A stretch of DNA of 64,000 nucleotides from Capnocytophaga sp. ARDL2 (GTDB taxonomy: Bacteria; Bacteroidota; Bacteroidia; Flavobacteriales; Flavobacteriaceae), in assembly GCF_041530365.1 (NCBI RefSeq), contig NZ_CP168034.1, positions 1,984,001 to 2,048,000 on the forward strand, read 5' to 3'. This document shows, piece after piece, positions 41,736 to 49,215 of this stretch. A program made the position numbers and the translations under genes. The first letter of the stretch is position 1. Each line of letters begins with the position of its first letter. The notes under the pieces were generated by a model. That model did no database searches, was not told the origin of the DNA, and saw nothing but the letters and a program-made list of their open reading frames with translations.

Positions 41736-42278
41736 ATGAAAAAACTTATTTTACTTACTATTTCTTTACTGTGTTTAGTATCATGTAAAGAAGACGAAAA
41801 ACCAATTGATATCGACCCTGTAGATTTATTACCTCCAGCTACGCAACACGGTGCTGTAATGTTTGCTTGTACAGTAAATGGTGAACCCTACATTTGCAAA
41901 GGATATGACCAAGTAACCAGCTACTACCAATGGGTAAATGGTGGATATGGATTTGTTGTTACAGGTAGAAAAAAAACAAATCTAATTTGGACAATTACAA
42001 TAGGGAATCGAGGTAACTCTCCCATACAGATGGGTACATTTATATTAAATCACGAAAATCCAGGTTATGCTGGAGGGGGGGGGGTAATAGGAGGAGTAAA
42101 CAATTCCTATCAAACATCCCTGACTACTAACATATACACAGGAGAAATGACAATAACAAAGTTTGATTTACAAAACGAAATCGTGTCAGGAACTTTTTGG
42201 TTTGATATAGAAAACCCATGGACAGGCGAGACTATTGAAATCCGAAATGGTCGCTTTGATACACATTTTTCTCAATAA
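41736..42278 (+). CDS. Array copy 1: DUF6252-like surface lipoprotein, poly-G tract in frame
   Basis: 180 aa. The signal MKKLILLTISLLCLVSC ends in a lipobox Cys, followed by KEDEKP, which resembles the K-(D/E)2 lipoprotein export signal that sends lipoproteins to the cell surface in Capnocytophaga. The body matches the small DUF6252-type lipoprotein pattern with the ending GTFWFDIENPWTGETIEIRN. A G10 tract at 42075-42084 encodes Gly and is in frame. The variable segment is about residues 75-135. Its own promoter region lacks the shared 84-bp spacer; TAATTTTAC at 41708 is a weak -7 candidate. Confidence 0.85.
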   Translation: MKKLILLTISLLCLVSCKEDEKPIDIDPVDLLPPATQHGAVMFACTVNGEPYICKGYDQVTSYYQWVNGGYGFVVTGRKKTNLIWTITIGNRGNSPIQMGTFILNHENPGYAGGGGVIGGVNNSYQTSLTTNIYTGEMTITKFDLQNEIVSGTFWFDIENPWTGETIEIRNGRFDTHFSQ

Positions 42279-42362
42279 TAAAAAATGCTAATAATTTTCA
42301 AAATTTAACATTTTTATAAAAATATTTTTATAGCTTTACAAATAATTCAAAACCTTTTCATT
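42279..42362 (+). repeat. 84-bp promoter-bearing spacer (also 43488, 44112, 44736, 45359)
   Basis: A near-identical block precedes copies 2, 4, 5, 6 and 7. It contains TTTAACATTTTTATAAAAAT and TAGCTTTAC (42331-42339), a variant of the TAnnTTTG -7 box, so each of these copies probably has its own promoter. The spacer before copy 3 (42903-42947) is only 45 bp and lacks it. Confidence 0.7.
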
Positions 42363-42902
42363 ATGAAAAAACTTATTTTACTTACTATTTCTTTACTGTG
42401 TTTAGTATCATGTAGAGAAGACGAAAAACCAATTGATATCGACCCTGTAGATTTATTACCTCCAGCTACCCAACACGGTGCTGTAATGTTTGCTTGTACA
42501 GTAAATGGTGAACCCTACATCTGCAAAGGCTACGACCAAGTAACTAGCTATTACCAATGGGTAGATGGTGGCTATGGGTTTATCGTAAGAGGAAGAAAAA
42601 AAACAGATTTAATGAGGAGTGTAGCTCTATTTAATCGACAACATGCTCCAATGGAAATAGGCACATTTATACTTAATGGCGAAACACCTGGTTACGGAGG
42701 GGGGGGGTATATAATCCGAGAATTTAATCAAATAGAAATATCCAGAACTAATTCAAAGTACACAGGAGAAATGACAATAACCAAATTTGATTTAGAAAAC
42801 GAAATAGTATCAGGAACTTTTTGGTTTGATATCGAAAATCCTTGGACAGGTGAGACTATTGAAATCAGAAATGGTCGTTTTGATACGCATTTTTCTCAAT
42901 AA
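42363..42902 (+). CDS. Array copy 2, poly-G tract in frame
   Basis: 179 aa. Same signal and export motif as copy 1 (LVSCREDEKP). Middle segment distinct from copy 1 (RKKTDLMRSVALFNRQHAPMEI...). The G9 tract at 42709-42717 is in frame. Nearly identical to copies 4 and 6 in the middle, which implies recent duplication or gene conversion. Copy 3 follows after only 45 bp without its own promoter block, so it may share this transcript. Confidence 0.85.
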   Translation: MKKLILLTISLLCLVSCREDEKPIDIDPVDLLPPATQHGAVMFACTVNGEPYICKGYDQVTSYYQWVDGGYGFIVRGRKKTDLMRSVALFNRQHAPMEIGTFILNGETPGYGGGGYIIREFNQIEISRTNSKYTGEMTITKFDLENEIVSGTFWFDIENPWTGETIEIRNGRFDTHFSQ

Positions 42903-42947
42903 CAGAAAATACAAATATTTTCATAATCAATTAAAAATCTTCACATT

Positions 42948-43487
42948 ATGAAACATTTTATTTTACTTACTATTTCTTTACTGTGTTTAGTATCATGTAG
43001 AGAAGACGAAAAACCAATTGATATCGACCCTGTAGATTTATTACCTCCAGCTACCCAACACGGTGCTGTAATGTTTGCTTGTACAGTAAATGGAGAACCT
43101 TACATCTGCAAAGGCTACGACCAAGTAACCAGCTACTACCAATGGGTTAATGGTGGGTATGGTTTTGTTGTAACTGGTAGTAAAAAAACAGAATTAATGT
43201 TAACGGTTGGATTGTTTAATCGTGAACATGCTCCAATAGAATTAGGTACATTTATTCTTAATGATGAAAAACCTGGTTATGGGGGGGGGGGGCATGTTAG
43301 AAAACAAACATTACAAACTAATGTTTCATACACTAATTCAATATATACCGGTGAAATGACAATTACCAAATTTGATTTACAAAACGAAATTGTTTCTGGA
43401 ACTTTTTGGTTTGATATCGAAAACCCATGGACAGGCGAGACTATTGAAATCCGAAATGGTCGCTTTGATACACATTTTTCTCAGTAA
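42948..43487 (+). CDS. Array copy 3, poly-G tract in frame
   Basis: 179 aa. The start MKHFILLTISLL differs from the MKKLILL of most copies and is shared with copy 7. The G12 tract at 43281-43292 is in frame, followed by HVRKQTLQTNVSYTNSIYTGEM, again closest to copy 7. The preceding spacer lacks the promoter block, so expression probably depends on copy 2's transcript. Confidence 0.85.
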   Translation: MKHFILLTISLLCLVSCREDEKPIDIDPVDLLPPATQHGAVMFACTVNGEPYICKGYDQVTSYYQWVNGGYGFVVTGSKKTELMLTVGLFNREHAPIELGTFILNDEKPGYGGGGHVRKQTLQTNVSYTNSIYTGEMTITKFDLQNEIVSGTFWFDIENPWTGETIEIRNGRFDTHFSQ

Positions 43488-43571
43488 TAAAAAATGCTAA
43501 TAATTTTCAAAATTTAACATTTTTATAAAAATATTTTTATAGCTTTACAAATAATTCAAAACCTTTGCATT

Positions 43572-44111
43572 ATGAAAAAACTTATTTTACTTACTATTTC
43601 TTTACTGTGTTTAGTATCATGTAAAGAAGACGAAAAGCCGATAGATATTGACCCTGTAGATTTATTACCACCTGCTACGCAACACGGTGCAGTGATGTTT
43701 GCTTGTACAGTAAATGGTGAACCCTACATCTGCAAAGGCTACGACCAAGTAACTAGCTATTACCAATGGGTAGATGGTGGCTATGGGTTTATCGTAAGAG
43801 GAAGAAAAAAAACAGATTTAATGTGGAGTGTAGCTCTATTTAATCGACAACATGCTCCAATGGAAATAGGCACATTTATACTTAATGGCGAAACACCTGG
43901 TTACGGAGGGGGGGGGTATATAATCCGAGAATTTAATCAAATAGAAATATCCAGAACTAATTCAAAGTACACAGGAGAAATGACAATAACCAAATTTGAT
44001 TTAGAAAACGAAATAGTATCAGGAACTTTTTGGTTTGATATCGAAAATCCTTGGACAGGCGAGACTATTGAAATCCGAAATGGTCGCTTTGATACACATT
44101 TTTCTCAGTAA
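43572..44111 (+). CDS. Array copy 4, poly-G tract in frame
   Basis: 179 aa, nearly identical to copy 2 through the middle (DLMWSVALFNRQHAPMEI, then YIIREFNQIEISRTNSKYTGEM). The G9 tract at 43908-43916 is in frame. Codon choices in the first 50 codons differ slightly (AAGCCGATAGATATT), so the first and middle parts have different histories. Confidence 0.85.
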   Translation: MKKLILLTISLLCLVSCKEDEKPIDIDPVDLLPPATQHGAVMFACTVNGEPYICKGYDQVTSYYQWVDGGYGFIVRGRKKTDLMWSVALFNRQHAPMEIGTFILNGETPGYGGGGYIIREFNQIEISRTNSKYTGEMTITKFDLENEIVSGTFWFDIENPWTGETIEIRNGRFDTHFSQ

Positions 44112-44195
44112 TAAAAAATGCTAATAATTTTCAAAATTTAACATTTTTATAAAAATATTTTTATAGCTTTACAAATAATTCAAAACCTTTGCATT

Positions 44196-44735
44196 ATGAA
44201 AAAACTTATTTTACTTACAATTTCTTTACTGTGTTTAGTATCATGTAAAGAAGACGAAAAACCAATAGATATTAACCCTGTAGATTTATTACCACCTGCT
44301 ACGCAACACGGTGCTGTAATGTTTGCTTGTACAGTAAATGGAGAACCCTACATCTGCGAAGGCTACGACCAAGTAACCAGCTACTACCAATGGGTTAATG
44401 GTGGATATGGATTTGTTGTAACAGGAATTAAAGAAACCAATTTATTATATACTGTTGGGATATATAATAGAGGAAATGCTCCCATTGAACAAGAAACATA
44501 TTTTCTAAATGGGGAAAACCCAGGTTATGGAGGAGGGGCTGGAGTTACTAGAAATTTAAATGAATTGGAGGGGAGTAAAACGGATTCAATATACATCGGC
44601 GAAATGACAATAACCAAATTTGATTTAGAAAACGAAATCGTATCAGGAACTTTTTGGTTTGATATAGAAAACCCTTGGACAGGCGAAACCATTGAAATCA
44701 GAAATGGTCGTTTTGATACGCATTTTTCTCAGTAA
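44196..44735 (+). CDS. Array copy 5, poly-G tract interrupted (stable)
   Basis: 179 aa. The only copy whose tract is broken: GGAGGAGGGGCTGGAG instead of a long G run (44529-44543), so it should not slip readily. Middle segment unique (KETNLLYTVGIYNRGNAPIEQETYF). Also unusual in having CEGY in place of CKGY and INPVD in place of IDPVD. It may be a constitutively expressed member. Confidence 0.85.
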   Translation: MKKLILLTISLLCLVSCKEDEKPIDINPVDLLPPATQHGAVMFACTVNGEPYICEGYDQVTSYYQWVNGGYGFVVTGIKETNLLYTVGIYNRGNAPIEQETYFLNGENPGYGGGAGVTRNLNELEGSKTDSIYIGEMTITKFDLENEIVSGTFWFDIENPWTGETIEIRNGRFDTHFSQ

Positions 44736-44819
44736 TAAAAAATGCTAATAATTTTCAAAATTTAACATTTTTATAAAAATATTTTTATAGCTTTACAAAT
44801 AATTCAAAACCTTTGCATT

Positions 44820-45170
44820 ATGAAAAAACTTATTTTACTTACTATTTCTTTACTGTGTTTAGTATCATGTAGAGAAGACGAAAAACCAATTGATATCGAC
44901 CCTGTAGATTTATTACCACCTGCTACACAACACGGTGCAGTGATGCTTGCTTGTACAGTAAATGGTGAACCCTACATCTGCAAAGGCTACGACCAAGTAA
45001 CTAGCTATTACCAATGGGTAGATGGTGGCTATGGGTTTATCGTAAGAGGAAGAAAAAAAACAGATTTAATGAGGAGTGTAGCTCTATTTAATCGACAACA
45101 TGCTCCAATGGAAATAGGCACATTTATACTTAATGGCGAAACACCTGGTTACGGAGGGGGGGGTATGTAA
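44820..45170 (+). CDS. Array copy 6, frameshifted at poly-G (phase OFF)
   Basis: As sequenced it encodes 116 aa and stops at TAA directly after the tract (GGTATGTAA). The tract is G8 (45156-45163). One more G would restore YVRKGINQLESSKTDSNYTGEM... and the shared C-terminus to 45358. The first 105 codons match copies 2 and 4 closely, apart from MLAC replacing MFAC. The product would lose the conserved final third, so it is probably not made or not stable. Confidence 0.85.
   Translation: MKKLILLTISLLCLVSCREDEKPIDIDPVDLLPPATQHGAVMLACTVNGEPYICKGYDQVTSYYQWVDGGYGFIVRGRKKTDLMRSVALFNRQHAPMEIGTFILNGETPGYGGGGM
45156..45163 (+). repeat. Poly-G tract of copy 6, OFF length
   Basis: G8, one short of the in-frame length of G9 in copies 2 and 4, which have the same flanks. 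Confidence 0.85.
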
Positions 45171-45442
45171 GAAAAGGAATTAATCAATTAGAATCATCAA
45201 AAACAGATTCTAATTACACTGGCGAAATGACCATAACAAAATTCGATTTGTCTAATGAAATCGTATCAGGAACTTTTTGGTTTGATATAGAAAACCCTTG
45301 GACAGGTGAGACAATTGAAATCAGAAATGGTCGTTTTGATACACATTTTTCTCAGTAATAAAAAATGCTAATAATTTTCAAAATTTAACATTTTTATAAA
45401 AATATTTTTATAGCTTTACAAATAATTCAAAATCTTCACATT

Positions 45443-45856
45443 ATGAAACATTTTATTTTACTTACTATTTCTTTACTGTGTTTAGTATCATGTAAAGAAG
45501 ACGAAAAACCAATTGATATCGACCCTGTAGATTTATTACCTCCAGCTACCCAACACGGTGCAGTGATGTTTGCTTGTACAGTAAATGGTGAACCCTACAT
45601 TTGCAAAGGATATGACCAAGTAACCAGCTACTACCAATGGGTTAATGGTGGGTATGGATTTGTTGTAACTGGTAGAAAAAAAACTGATTTAATGTTGACA
45701 GTTGGATTATTTAATCGCCAACATGCTCCAATAGAAATAGGTACATTTATTCTTAATGGCGAAACACCTGGTTATGGGGGGGGGGGGGAGATGTTAGAAG
45801 ACAAACGTTACAAACTAATGTTTCGTACACTAATTCAATATATACAGGTGAAATGA
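45443..45856 (+). CDS. Array copy 7, frameshifted at poly-G (phase OFF)
   Basis: As sequenced it encodes 137 aa, ending in an out-of-frame tail (EMLEDKRYKLMFRTL...). The tract is G13 (45776-45788); 14 or 11 G would rejoin DVRRQTLQTNVSYTNSIYTGEM and the shared C-terminus ending at 45984, giving 180 aa. Starts MKHFILL and has a middle like copy 3. The out-of-frame remainder reaches to within 24 bp of the lipase-like gene, so the two may be co-transcribed. Confidence 0.85.
   Translation: MKHFILLTISLLCLVSCKEDEKPIDIDPVDLLPPATQHGAVMFACTVNGEPYICKGYDQVTSYYQWVNGGYGFVVTGRKKTDLMLTVGLFNRQHAPIEIGTFILNGETPGYGGGGEMLEDKRYKLMFRTLIQYIQVK
45776..45788 (+). repeat. Poly-G tract of copy 7, OFF length
   Basis: G13, the longest single-base G run in the array. 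G11 or G14 would be in frame. Confidence 0.85.
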
Positions 45857-46008
45857 CAATAACCAAATTTGATTTAGAAAACGAAATAGCATCAGGAACT
45901 TTTTGGTTTGATATCGAAAATCCTTGGACAGGTGAGACAATTGAAATCAGAAATGGTCGTTTTGATACGCATTTTTCTCAATAATATTAATTTTAAAATT
46001 TTTGTACT

Positions 46009-49000
46009 ATGAAAAAATACATTTTATTTTTAGCCTTAGGGTTCTTAGTGCAAATAGGTTTTGCACAAAAAGACCCAAATAGTTTTGTCAATAGGCAGTA
46101 TGCCGAACAAGCACACGCTATTTTTGGAAAACTGGAACGAGACCGTATCCCTTATGGTCTTTTAGATGATTATGCCTTTCCTTTCACAGACTTAAAGGCA
46201 TACAATGGTACTCTAACTGATAGTACCAAAATCGATGTCAATGTATATGGCGAAATCTACAAAACATTACATGCAGCTCGAATGACTCCTCAAACGGGTA
46301 ATGATTTTATGGATTTTGAGGAATTAGCTACTAAATGGGCTACCTATCGAATGAATAATAATACAGATGAAAATGATGTTACTTTGATTCTGTCTGGTTT
46401 GTACTACAAATACGCAAGTATTGACAGTAATTCCATCATAAACGGAAAGCTAAATGTCGAAAACAATGAATTGCACGATGTCTATGTAAATGGAGTATGG
46501 CAAAATCCTTATAAAGTACATGAAACAGTTGCAATTGCACCTCCTGTTTCTGTAATCAATTCGCTAAACTTTAGCGTATTACTGCCTTCAGAATTGTTTT
46601 TGTCGAATGCAAAACACAATAAAATAGTGAATATTTCAGCTGATTTTGATAACAATAATGGTTATCAGCCTATTGCATTTAACCAGAAAATAAATGTACA
46701 TTATCAAAATGCAGGAACCTATAATTGGAAGTTTAAATTAGAAAAACAAAATGGAGGATTTTTATTTATTCAAATCCCTATCATCATTAAAAATCCAATT
46801 TTCTCGTTTCCAACAAATGGAAAAAACAATGTGCTTATCAGCCATACCAATCACAATGCTATATTGAGGATAGATTACGCACCAAGCAGTAACAATAAAA
46901 TAATGAAACCACTCATAGTAGTAGAAGGTTTTGACGCAGAAAGTGTTTTGTATCCCGAAACAATAGGAGGCAGTGTTACTTTAAAAGATTTTTTTAAATC
47001 TATTCAAACAGTACAAAACAGTCAATTAAATAACTTATTAGATGGAAATACCCAACAATACGACATCATTTATGTAGATTGGAAAAATGGTGTGGGTGAC
47101 ATCAGAGAAAATGCCGAAACCCTTATCAAAGTCATCGAGTGGGTAAACCAAGAAAAGGTTGCAAATGGTAGTCTAGCAAAGAATGTGGTATTGGGGCAAA
47201 GTATGGGAGGATTGGTTGCCACATATGCCTTGAGTAAAATGGAAAAAACACCTGGCAAAAATCATGATACTTCCTTGTTTATCGCTCACGATTCTCCGTT
47301 TCAAGGGGCGAATACTCCTGTGAGTACTCAGTTTTTATTTCGTCATCTAAGCGATGTTTATTTTAGTAACCCATTAGCAGTTGCTGCTGGTGAAATGATA
47401 TTGCCTTTTATTCAAAATTTATCTTCACTAATGGGAAGTAATTTTTTATCACAATATGTTTCTCCAAATACGATTTTAGGAATACAAGATACACCTGCTG
47501 CATTGCAAATGACAAAGTATCATATAACACCAAATAATCAAGTAACAGATATTCATTTCAGCACTTGGAGAAATCAATTTGAAGCAATGGAATATCCTCA
47601 ACAAACACGAAATGTAGCCATTAGTAATGGTAATATGTGTGCAGAACCTCAAGAGGTAAATGCTGGAGAACAAATGTTTTTAATAAGTGAAACTCTGAGT
47701 ACTAAAAATGGTCTTAAAGAATTTTTATACCATTTAGGAGCATCTCTTTGGGGAATTACGAGCAGAAATTATGAATTAGGAATAGTTGCTTTAATTCCAG
47801 GCAAAGCAAAGATTGATTATGTAGTTGATTTAAGAGCTATACCAGAACAATCTCAAAATAATCGATTGGTTTATAGAGGAAAAACACGTTACCATGTAAA
47901 GCTATTCGATTTAGGTTTTTGGACTCCGACTATTTCAACAGATGTTGTTCCGTTAAGAGAAAAATCAGCCCCCACTTTTACGTACCCTTTAGAAACTTTT
48001 TCAGGAGGAGTTAACAGTTTGAAAAGTGTTGTTGATGGAGTAAATTTCATTAATTTTCCAGATTATTATTTCAAAAAACCTCGTTATGGTTTTATTCCAG
48101 TTGCAAGTGCTTTAGATATTAGAAGATCAAATGGAAATCTAACTGTTAATGATTTTAAAACTCCTTATTATCATCCTGTGCTAAGCGATGCAAATCTTTC
48201 TACTCCATTTGATAATTTTGTTACAGAAAAAACTGTAGGAAATAATGCGAATTTTGGTCATATTTCTTTTAGTTTGAAAAATAGTAACTGGTTAGCAACT
48301 GAACTTTTGGCAAATGCAAATTCGACTAATAATTTTCCTGAAAACTGTTCATTTTTGTGTGAGGCTAATGAAATTTTTGGTAATAACAGAGTGTGTTCTT
48401 TTATAAACTACACCTATTCTATACCTACACCACCAGCAGATGCTACCATTCATTGGACAGTAGACGGAATGGAAATAGTTTCTGGACAAGGTACACCACA
48501 AGTAGTTATTAATACTTTAAATATTTCAGGCACAAAGAAAATCAAAGTAACCATTACATCTCAAGAATGTGGCGTTGTAACTCTACAAAAAAATGTGAGA
48601 ATTGGCGTACCAACAATGTTTGGAGACATCGAAGGAAATAATACAATTACCGTTTACAATAATATAAACATAAATACCCCTCTGACATATACTGCACCAT
48701 CAGCAATAGGAGCTACCTATTATGAATGGATATTACCTGGAAATTTTGAAATAGTGCAAAGTTTTGGTAGCCATTCAACTACACCACAAAACTGGCAACT
48801 ATTGGCATCTACTCAAAATAGTAACCAAATACAAGTAAAATCGCCTCATCAAGGGCAAGGACAGATAAAAGTAAGAGCTTGTAATGATTGTGGATGTACA
48901 GCATATACCTCATTAAATGTAAATCATGTTTATAAAAATCTTCCTCCAGGTTTTGAAATTATTGCCAATCCTGTAGAAGACGGAATACTTGGTATTTCTT

Positions 49001-49215
49001 GGAACAACAATATTGGAACCCCTCCAGTTTTCTACAACAATGAAACGACTGTTTCTATTTTTGATTTACAAACAAGATTGGTACATCAGTTTCAAATGAA
49101 TAATCAAGGAGGAACAACTAATGTTCAACATTTATCAAACGGTTTTTACAAAGTACATATAGATTTGCAAAATGGAAGTCATCAAACGTTAAATTTAGAA
49201 ATGTCAAATAATTAA
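46009..49215 (+). CDS. T9SS-secreted alpha/beta hydrolase (lipase-like)
   Basis: 1068 aa. Signal peptide MKKYILFLALGFLVQIGFAQ. A hydrolase domain at about residues 300-560 holds the nucleophile elbow GQSMGG (Ser398) after VVEGFDAESVLYPETI and DIIYVDWKNGVGDI, as in lipases/PGAP1-like enzymes. A PKD-like Ig region (~770-980) and a C-terminal T9SS sorting domain (FEIIANPVEDGILGISW...) follow, so it is expected outside the cell. It begins 24 bp after the last array copy, with no clear promoter between, and ends at a hairpin terminator. Confidence 0.85.
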   Translation: MKKYILFLALGFLVQIGFAQKDPNSFVNRQYAEQAHAIFGKLERDRIPYGLLDDYAFPFTDLKAYNGTLTDSTKIDVNVYGEIYKTLHAARMTPQTGNDFMDFEELATKWATYRMNNNTDENDVTLILSGLYYKYASIDSNSIINGKLNVENNELHDVYVNGVWQNPYKVHETVAIAPPVSVINSLNFSVLLPSELFLSNAKHNKIVNISADFDNNNGYQPIAFNQKINVHYQNAGTYNWKFKLEKQNGGFLFIQIPIIIKNPIFSFPTNGKNNVLISHTNHNAILRIDYAPSSNNKIMKPLIVVEGFDAESVLYPETIGGSVTLKDFFKSIQTVQNSQLNNLLDGNTQQYDIIYVDWKNGVGDIRENAETLIKVIEWVNQEKVANGSLAKNVVLGQSMGGLVATYALSKMEKTPGKNHDTSLFIAHDSPFQGANTPVSTQFLFRHLSDVYFSNPLAVAAGEMILPFIQNLSSLMGSNFLSQYVSPNTILGIQDTPAALQMTKYHITPNNQVTDIHFSTWRNQFEAMEYPQQTRNVAISNGNMCAEPQEVNAGEQMFLISETLSTKNGLKEFLYHLGASLWGITSRNYELGIVALIPGKAKIDYVVDLRAIPEQSQNNRLVYRGKTRYHVKLFDLGFWTPTISTDVVPLREKSAPTFTYPLETFSGGVNSLKSVVDGVNFINFPDYYFKKPRYGFIPVASALDIRRSNGNLTVNDFKTPYYHPVLSDANLSTPFDNFVTEKTVGNNANFGHISFSLKNSNWLATELLANANSTNNFPENCSFLCEANEIFGNNRVCSFINYTYSIPTPPADATIHWTVDGMEIVSGQGTPQVVINTLNISGTKKIKVTITSQECGVVTLQKNVRIGVPTMFGDIEGNNTITVYNNININTPLTYTAPSAIGATYYEWILPGNFEIVQSFGSHSTTPQNWQLLASTQNSNQIQVKSPHQGQGQIKVRACNDCGCTAYTSLNVNHVYKNLPPGFEIIANPVEDGILGISWNNNIGTPPVFYNNETTVSIFDLQTRLVHQFQMNNQGGTTNVQHLSNGFYKVHIDLQNGSHQTLNLEMSNN

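Follow-up and report, generated by a model that had tools for sequence, protein, structure and literature searches.

Organisation of the lipoprotein array

The stretch of DNA analysed here (the window) covers 64 kb of the single-contig genome (2,508,668 bases) of Capnocytophaga sp. ARDL2, a member of the Flavobacteriaceae. Positions 41736-45984 of its plus strand are occupied by seven tandem paralogous lipoprotein genes whose full-length products measure 179-180 amino acids (aa), and six of the seven carry a long homopolymeric run of G inside the gene (Table 1). All six runs are G on the sense strand. An earlier sequence-only reading of the same window had listed lengths of 10, 9, 12, 9, 8 and 13 for them, and these lengths were recovered at the same coordinates. 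Frame state was judged against a conserved anchor downstream of the tract, and by this check copies 1-4 are ON, copies 6 and 7 are OFF and copy 5 is locked, as had been proposed. In copy 5, which is in frame, the site matching the other tracts (44529-44538) reads GGAGGAGGGG, with a longest run of 4. In copy 6 a 116-aa open frame ends at 45170, and an intact tail continues to a stop at 45356-45358. Similarly, a 137-aa open frame of copy 7 ends at 45856 and its intact tail reaches a stop at 45982-45984. Most of the copies are separated by the same short spacer; gap 2/3 is the exception, being 45 nt long and different.

The copies belong to a named protein family, contrary to the earlier suggestion that it was undescribed. 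Model scores, which cover three of the seven copies (1, 3 and 5), reach 157.6, 147.0 and 145.2 bits for NCBIfam NF052634 (Riean_0653 family), above the cut-off of 57. For Pfam PF19765 (DUF6252), with a threshold of 27.2, they are 27.5, 28.1 and 23.2, respectively. One member, Riean_0653 of Riemerella anatipestifer, has been studied genetically (PMC7881567).

Table 1. Coordinates of the lipoprotein array and of the gene downstream of it, in positions of the window
Feature	Position	Strand	Description
Copy 1	41736..42278	+	180-aa lipoprotein, in frame, G10 at 42075-42084
Spacer, gap 1/2	42279..42362	+	84 nt; near-identical in five of the six gaps (1/2, 3/4, 4/5, 5/6, 6/7)
Copy 2	42363..42902	+	179 aa, in frame, G9 at 42699-42707
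Copy 3	42948..43487	+	179 aa, in frame, G12 at 43281-43292
Copy 4	43572..44111	+	179 aa, in frame, G9 at 43908-43916
Copy 5	44196..44735	+	179 aa, in frame, interrupted tract site 44529-44538, 'locked'
Copy 6	44820..45358	+	Out of frame at G8 (45156-45163)
Copy 7	45443..45984	+	Out of frame at G13 (45776-45788)
Alpha/beta-hydrolase-like secreted protein	46009..49215	+	1068 aa; 24 nt after copy 7

Origin of the poly-G tracts

Under a first-order Markov model of the rest of the window, 0.004 G runs of at least 8 are expected in the 4.25-kb array, and six are observed. Outside the array, the longest run of G or C in the 64-kb window is 6. The runs also go against codon usage, since GGG accounts for 81 of the 963 glycine codons (8.4%) in the 46 other open reading frames (ORFs) of the window. 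Synonymous resampling of copies 1-4 produced a run of at least 8 in about 1.3% of draws per copy. Given the Markov expectation and the resampling, chance and codon usage were both rejected as an origin of the tracts.

The G runs encode three to four glycines in a loop that has glycines in many relatives, and they might merely serve to encode a required glycine stretch, without any slippage. Such an explanation is very improbable in view of the rarity of GGG among the glycine codons of the window; moreover, relatives often have fewer glycines at this place (alignment, one row in two), and most family ORFs in the related loci described below have no G run above 6.

A genome-wide habit of poly-G was considered as well and rejected. 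Outside the array, the whole genome holds 11 further G/C runs of at least 8 against 4.8 expected genome-wide, which is about twice the chance level and cannot account for six in 4.25 kb. With ORFs defined by an ATG start and at least 60 aa, two of the 11 lie within ORFs (acetyltransferase-like and MenD-like, by eye) and nine outside, one of which touches a stop codon. These further runs have lengths of 8-13 and are located at contig positions 516144, 525150, 538741, 565213, 642003, 740425, 777053, 1457398, 1544649, 1680640 and 1711335. Some of the nine non-ORF runs sit shortly upstream of ORFs and could influence transcription.

Tracts in related loci

A scan of one genome per species yielded 42 named loci of the family. 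All eight G/C runs of at least 8 in these loci are sense-strand G within family genes (47,760 bases), and the flanks, amounting to 415,727 bases, contain none (Fisher p 1.3e-8, in a test that treats loci as independent, which the two Mesonia loci L089 and L092 are not). A wider set of 169 loci, many of them overlapping and 160 with a tblastn hit, was chosen by protein and not by tract. In this set, own-genome loci other than the window excerpt were excluded, and tracts with identical preceding 40 bases were counted once. All ten distinct non-window tracts of at least 8 were again within family genes. Seven of them are positioned at reference residues 112-115 (L081 twice, L086, L088, L089, L091 and L134), in the same loop as the window tracts at residues 110-114; the remaining three are at residues 69 (L109), 81 (L165) and 97 (L170). 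Runs of exactly 7 number six in the 169 loci, two within family genes and four outside. Tract bearers include Mesonia hippocampi, M. oceanica, Mesonia sp. HuA40, Salegentibacter sp. R32 and two metagenome-assembled genomes (MAGs), one of Bacteroidetes and one of Flavobacteriaceae. No run longer than 6 occurs in the arrays of Paenimyroides aestuarii (L070) and P. tangerinum (L080); presence of the tract thus varies even among near relatives. The L080 array includes runs of undetermined bases as well as broken ORFs, and repeats may have defeated its assembly.

The combination of tract copies with one lacking a tract also recurs. With L089 and L092 counted as one, eight of ten tract loci have a full-length copy lacking a run of 8 next to their tract copies (the window, L081, L086, L088, L089, L109, L208 and L217), and L091 and L201 have a single full-length copy. 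Additionally, out-of-frame tracts followed by open tails are found in L081 (G11) and L217 (G8). A truncated database protein, P0038, ends soon past the glycine run, apparently in the shifted frame of its relatives (by eye).

One difference in tract length separates two closely similar loci. L089 from Mesonia sp. HuA40 and L092 from an uncultured Mesonia MAG share 97.7% identity over 10,462 columns, and the tract of their family gene is G10 and in frame in L089, G9 and out of frame in L092. Ten other gaps distinguish the pair: five lie inside two ORFs and cancel, three are not within an ORF in one or both loci, and two single-base gaps fall in a 222-aa ORF of L089 (1883-2551), the first part of which is unaligned in L092, where the ORF is broken.

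These comparisons bear on the possibility that G8 and G13 arose as mistakes of sequencing or assembly in long homopolymers and that every copy is really in frame. Long G runs are error-prone, slip-sized errors would look identical, and the out-of-frame Mesonia locus, L092, has the further single-base gaps just mentioned. However, independent assemblies from other genera also have poly-G at the tract site, and separate data contain further out-of-frame or truncated forms (L081, L092, L217, P0038 and P0005, the last described below). Errors would thus explain the frame states and not the tracts, and we assign this explanation a low probability.

As a separate observation, the close relatives P0017 and P0018 (Avrilella dinanensis) read PGYGGGGF and PGYGGGF at the tract site, one glycine apart, which is a possible in-frame length variation.

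Condition of the OFF copies and probable exchange between copies

In copies 6 and 7, the 44 codons ahead of the stop are open in their own frame and contain no stop codon, and the portion upstream of the tract is likewise open. The ratio of non-synonymous to synonymous differences (pN/pS) of the tail against the ON copies is 0.050 for copy 6 and 0.044 for copy 7, compared with 0.017 among ON copies. An array of decaying paralogues, with neutral slippage in the glycine loop and OFF copies that are pseudogenes on their way out, would fit the two of seven copies out of frame and the fragments of array genes present in the relatives L088, L091, L101 and L108. Nevertheless, the stop-free tails with a pN/pS of 0.04-0.05 (to which gene conversion could contribute), the open pre-tract parts and the restriction of tracts to the NF052634 family in the 42 named loci make decay improbable.

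Exchange between the copies is probable. Copies 2 and 6 are 100% identical over the 130 aligned columns before the tract and 74% identical over the next 75. In the database entry P0005, a first half like copies 2, 4 and 6 is fused at the tract to an OFF tail like that of copy 7 (by eye). Both junctions would be expected if the tract were mainly a recombination joint between variable cassettes, with frame changes as a by-product. This role is nonetheless unlikely, as the array shows one clear breakpoint, P0005 comes from a 561-base contig that may be a chimaeric assembly, and tracts also occur at L091 and L201, where there is a single full-length copy.

Lipoprotein features and structure

In the five aligned copies, the lipobox cysteine is followed by K or R and then by E-D-E. 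A lipoprotein export signal (LES) has been described for Capnocytophaga as a K-(D/E)2-type motif after the cysteine, in which +2 is a minority position for the basic residue and R lies outside the motif as published (PMC5080379). The copies carry a motif of the LES type with the basic residue at +2. Owing to this resemblance of the N-terminal motif to the LES, the array proteins are predicted to be exposed on the cell surface. The structure model of the lipoprotein has a predicted local distance difference test (pLDDT) score of 91. A comparison of its fold, in which the same fold was asked for LpqH-like, fHbp- and TbpB-type barrels, returned weak barrel matches only, and a search by sequence for relatives with solved structures gave none that was convincing (best E 0.14). 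Carriage of relatives by viruses was also considered; 23 stretches of viral contigs fitted a pattern, and none of these 23 encodes a relative.

Functional information is available for Riean_0653, which has been tied to haemolysis and virulence in the duck pathogen Riemerella anatipestifer (PMC7881567). The transposon mutants M18, M27, M29 and M31 are reported to have greatly reduced haemolysis, and a plasmid copy of Riean_0653 brought it back in M18; the recombinant protein itself was non-haemolytic (PMC7881567). M18 had a lethal dose about 12-13-fold higher, which the plasmid copy did not clearly restore, although it raised blood counts (PMC7881567).

The array as a candidate contingency locus

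The best explanation of the array is a contingency locus of the slipped-strand (simple-sequence-repeat) type whose lipoproteins are probably surface-exposed, an interpretation to which we attach a probability of roughly three in four. The earlier proposal of a candidate phase-variation locus is thereby well supported, the support consisting of the non-random tracts, the presence of both frame alleles, the conserved OFF tails, the tracts at the same site elsewhere and the Mesonia pair. Switching in populations, surface exposure and function are inferred, as follows. The product of each tract-bearing gene would be a small lipidated protein rich in beta structure, which probably sits on the outer face of the outer membrane. 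The G run would lengthen or shorten by one base as the DNA is replicated. An in-frame length would allow the full lipoprotein to be made, and an out-of-frame length would lead to a stop within about 25 codons, with loss of the last four beta strands of the model, including the most conserved part. Six independent switches together with one locked-on copy would permit many ON/OFF combinations per clone with at least one copy always on, and the variants so combined would differ in the central variable segment (residues 69-135). The variable halves are probably reshuffled as well, by recombination between copies in which one of the breaks falls at or near the tract. In the least certain step, the lipoproteins may act together with the adjacent secreted hydrolase-like protein as its partner, anchor or regulator.

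Several points weigh against this interpretation. The tract states come from one assembly of one isolate of the species. Among the 42 named loci, seven carry a tract and 35 do not, and two of the seven (L089 and L092) are one locus in two genomes. Switching is therefore not general to the family, as most family genes have no long tract. L109 was examined as an OFF state and rejected, its frame break being positioned after the tract and not at it. The G9 of L092 could be an assembly error of the MAG, given the two single-base gaps in the broken ORF. The similarity of the OFF tails could be due to gene conversion from ON copies alone. Finally, the ratio of non-synonymous to synonymous substitution rates (dN/dS) in the variable segment, 0.28-0.53, is raised yet stays below 1, and diversifying selection of the immune type is therefore not directly indicated in this segment.

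The kind of mechanism is well known, as both poly-G contingency genes and multi-copy switching families have been established. The meningococcal HmbR and HpuAB genes likewise contain poly-G within the ORF, the frame deciding expression of a surface protein; they are two receptors, whereas the array consists of tandem members of one lipoprotein family, each tract lying in the gene's second half (PMC3786947). The gonococcal Opa genes are also many phase-variable paralogues, but the roughly 11 of them are scattered on the chromosome, unlike the seven tandem copies here, one of them tract-free (PMC3745409). Riean_0653 is of the same protein family by model score, and the main text of the one paper found to name it contains no occurrence of the terms phase variation, homopolymer, frameshift or paralogue (PMC7881567). 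Closer in lineage, the adhesin ('FSD') genes of Ornithobacterium hominis are numerous paralogous surface proteins from the wider group, with a 'putative phase variation mechanism' (PMC13183296). The switching idea is accordingly not new to these bacteria. The FSD genes are named as adhesins, and the NF052634 family is not described among them in the text available (PMC13183296). A search of the main text of a paper on homopolymeric tracts (PMC2831843) for Bacteroid- or Flavobacter- gave no match. No paper on poly-G switching in the NF052634 family was found among the matches listed from the open-access literature. Within that literature, the new elements are the family, the recurrent tract site, the locked-plus-switchable layout and the linkage to a hydrolase. 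If the interpretation holds, a classical replication-slippage switch, familiar from Neisseria and Helicobacter, would be placed in Flavobacteriaceae with a tract site shared across genera. Homopolymer 'errors' and 'pseudogenes' at this site may then be real biology.

The hydrolase-like neighbour

The alpha/beta-hydrolase-like protein encoded downstream of the array contains the motif GQSMGG (residues 396-401), a GxSxG-type elbow that is invariant in all 13 aligned sequences, and a PKD-like domain. Its matches to Pfam PF05057, PF00561 and PF02450 all remain below the cut-off, and its structure model is of low confidence (pLDDT 59). A C-terminal sorting domain of the type IX secretion system (T9SS) was sought in the 1068-aa protein and scored below the cut-offs, with 23.3 for PF18962 (cut-off 27) and 21.6 for TIGR04183 (cut-off 23). 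The homologue P0060, 61% identical to it, carries PF18962.

Linkage to such a gene is frequent. By an ORF-distance rule, an ORF matching the hydrolase model lies directly downstream of a family gene in 25 of the 42 named loci, some of these ORFs being fragments or tails (L084, L086, L100 and L111); a stricter count requiring one ORF that spans at least 400 model positions gives 18 of 42. Among these are four of the seven tract-bearing named loci (L081, L088, L091 and L109). The 17 loci outside the 25 have no adjacent hydrolase-model ORF by the distance rule. The tract-bearing L089 and L092 belong to these 17, and so does L121, where a hydrolase exists and the lipoprotein gene is cut by the contig end. 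In the tract-bearing L086, a T9SS-tail-like match alone is found downstream. The pairing extends to L212, from a genome of another family, where three lipoproteins precede a 1007-aa hydrolase homologue, and to the Sphingobacteriales MAGs L097 and L107; L216 has a 995-aa ORF resembling the homologue of L212 (by eye). Moreover, 5' fragments of the hydrolase gene are located between lipoprotein copies in L081 (1537-1803), L090 (6061-6348), L097 (7550-7798) and L106 (1735-3821, with three fragments). Hence the lipoprotein gene and the start of the hydrolase gene were probably duplicated together.

The linkage suggests a different purpose for the tracts, in which the lipoproteins are dedicated partners of the hydrolase (anchor, activator or self-protection) and the tracts tune partner dose or specificity and not antigen display. 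The hydrolase pairing in 25 of 42 loci (long in 18, and in four of seven with tracts), its recurrence in L212 and the signs of joint duplication in L081, L090, L097 and L106 favour such a role. So do the Riean_0653 mutants, which lose much of their haemolysis although the recombinant protein is non-haemolytic (PMC7881567). Pairing and phenotype together make a partner role plausible. It is weakened, however, by the 17 of 42 loci without an adjacent hydrolase-model ORF, among them L089 and L092, and by L086 with its T9SS-tail-like match, and the relation of lipoprotein to hydrolase is known from gene linkage alone. Overall, a dedicated partnership is a serious alternative, with odds of about one in three in its favour. 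The stochastic multi-copy display put forward by the sequence-only reading is supported as a candidate switch, and its display half is qualified: surface exposure is a prediction from the N-terminal motif, and the hydrolase linkage suggests a partner role that the sequence-only reading had not noticed.

Physiologically, the array may serve either to vary an antigen or adhesin or to switch the set of partners available to the secreted hydrolase-like protein. A broader and more doubtful proposal is a Bacteroidota-wide module in which arrays of surface lipoproteins, switched by poly-G in some lineages, would serve a secreted hydrolase as its cognate partners; the cells of a clone would then vary in partner repertoire and not in antigen. 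Equally speculatively, cells with a switched partner repertoire might vary at random in enzyme anchoring, specificity or self-protection. A known parallel is the phospholipase effector Tle3 of the type VI secretion system with its outer-membrane lipoprotein immunity protein Tli3, which likewise pairs a lipolytic secreted enzyme with a lipoprotein. That pair uses another secretion route, phase variation is not mentioned in the text available, and the likeness on the side of the array comes from gene linkage alone (PMC9860674). If the contingency-locus interpretation is right, the link of Riean_0653 to haemolysis and virulence (PMC7881567) and the frequent enzyme-like neighbour would provide a handle on function.

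Further variation was noticed in the hydrolase-like gene itself. An in-frame stop or a frame change interrupts it, at varied sites, in L070, L101, L106, L118, L088, L129, L139 and L148. P0059 (11 member sequences, 15.9-kb contig) is 97% identical to the product of 46009-49215 and differs noticeably from it at residues of about 300-395, just before the nucleophile elbow (by eye), as if this part had been exchanged by recombination.

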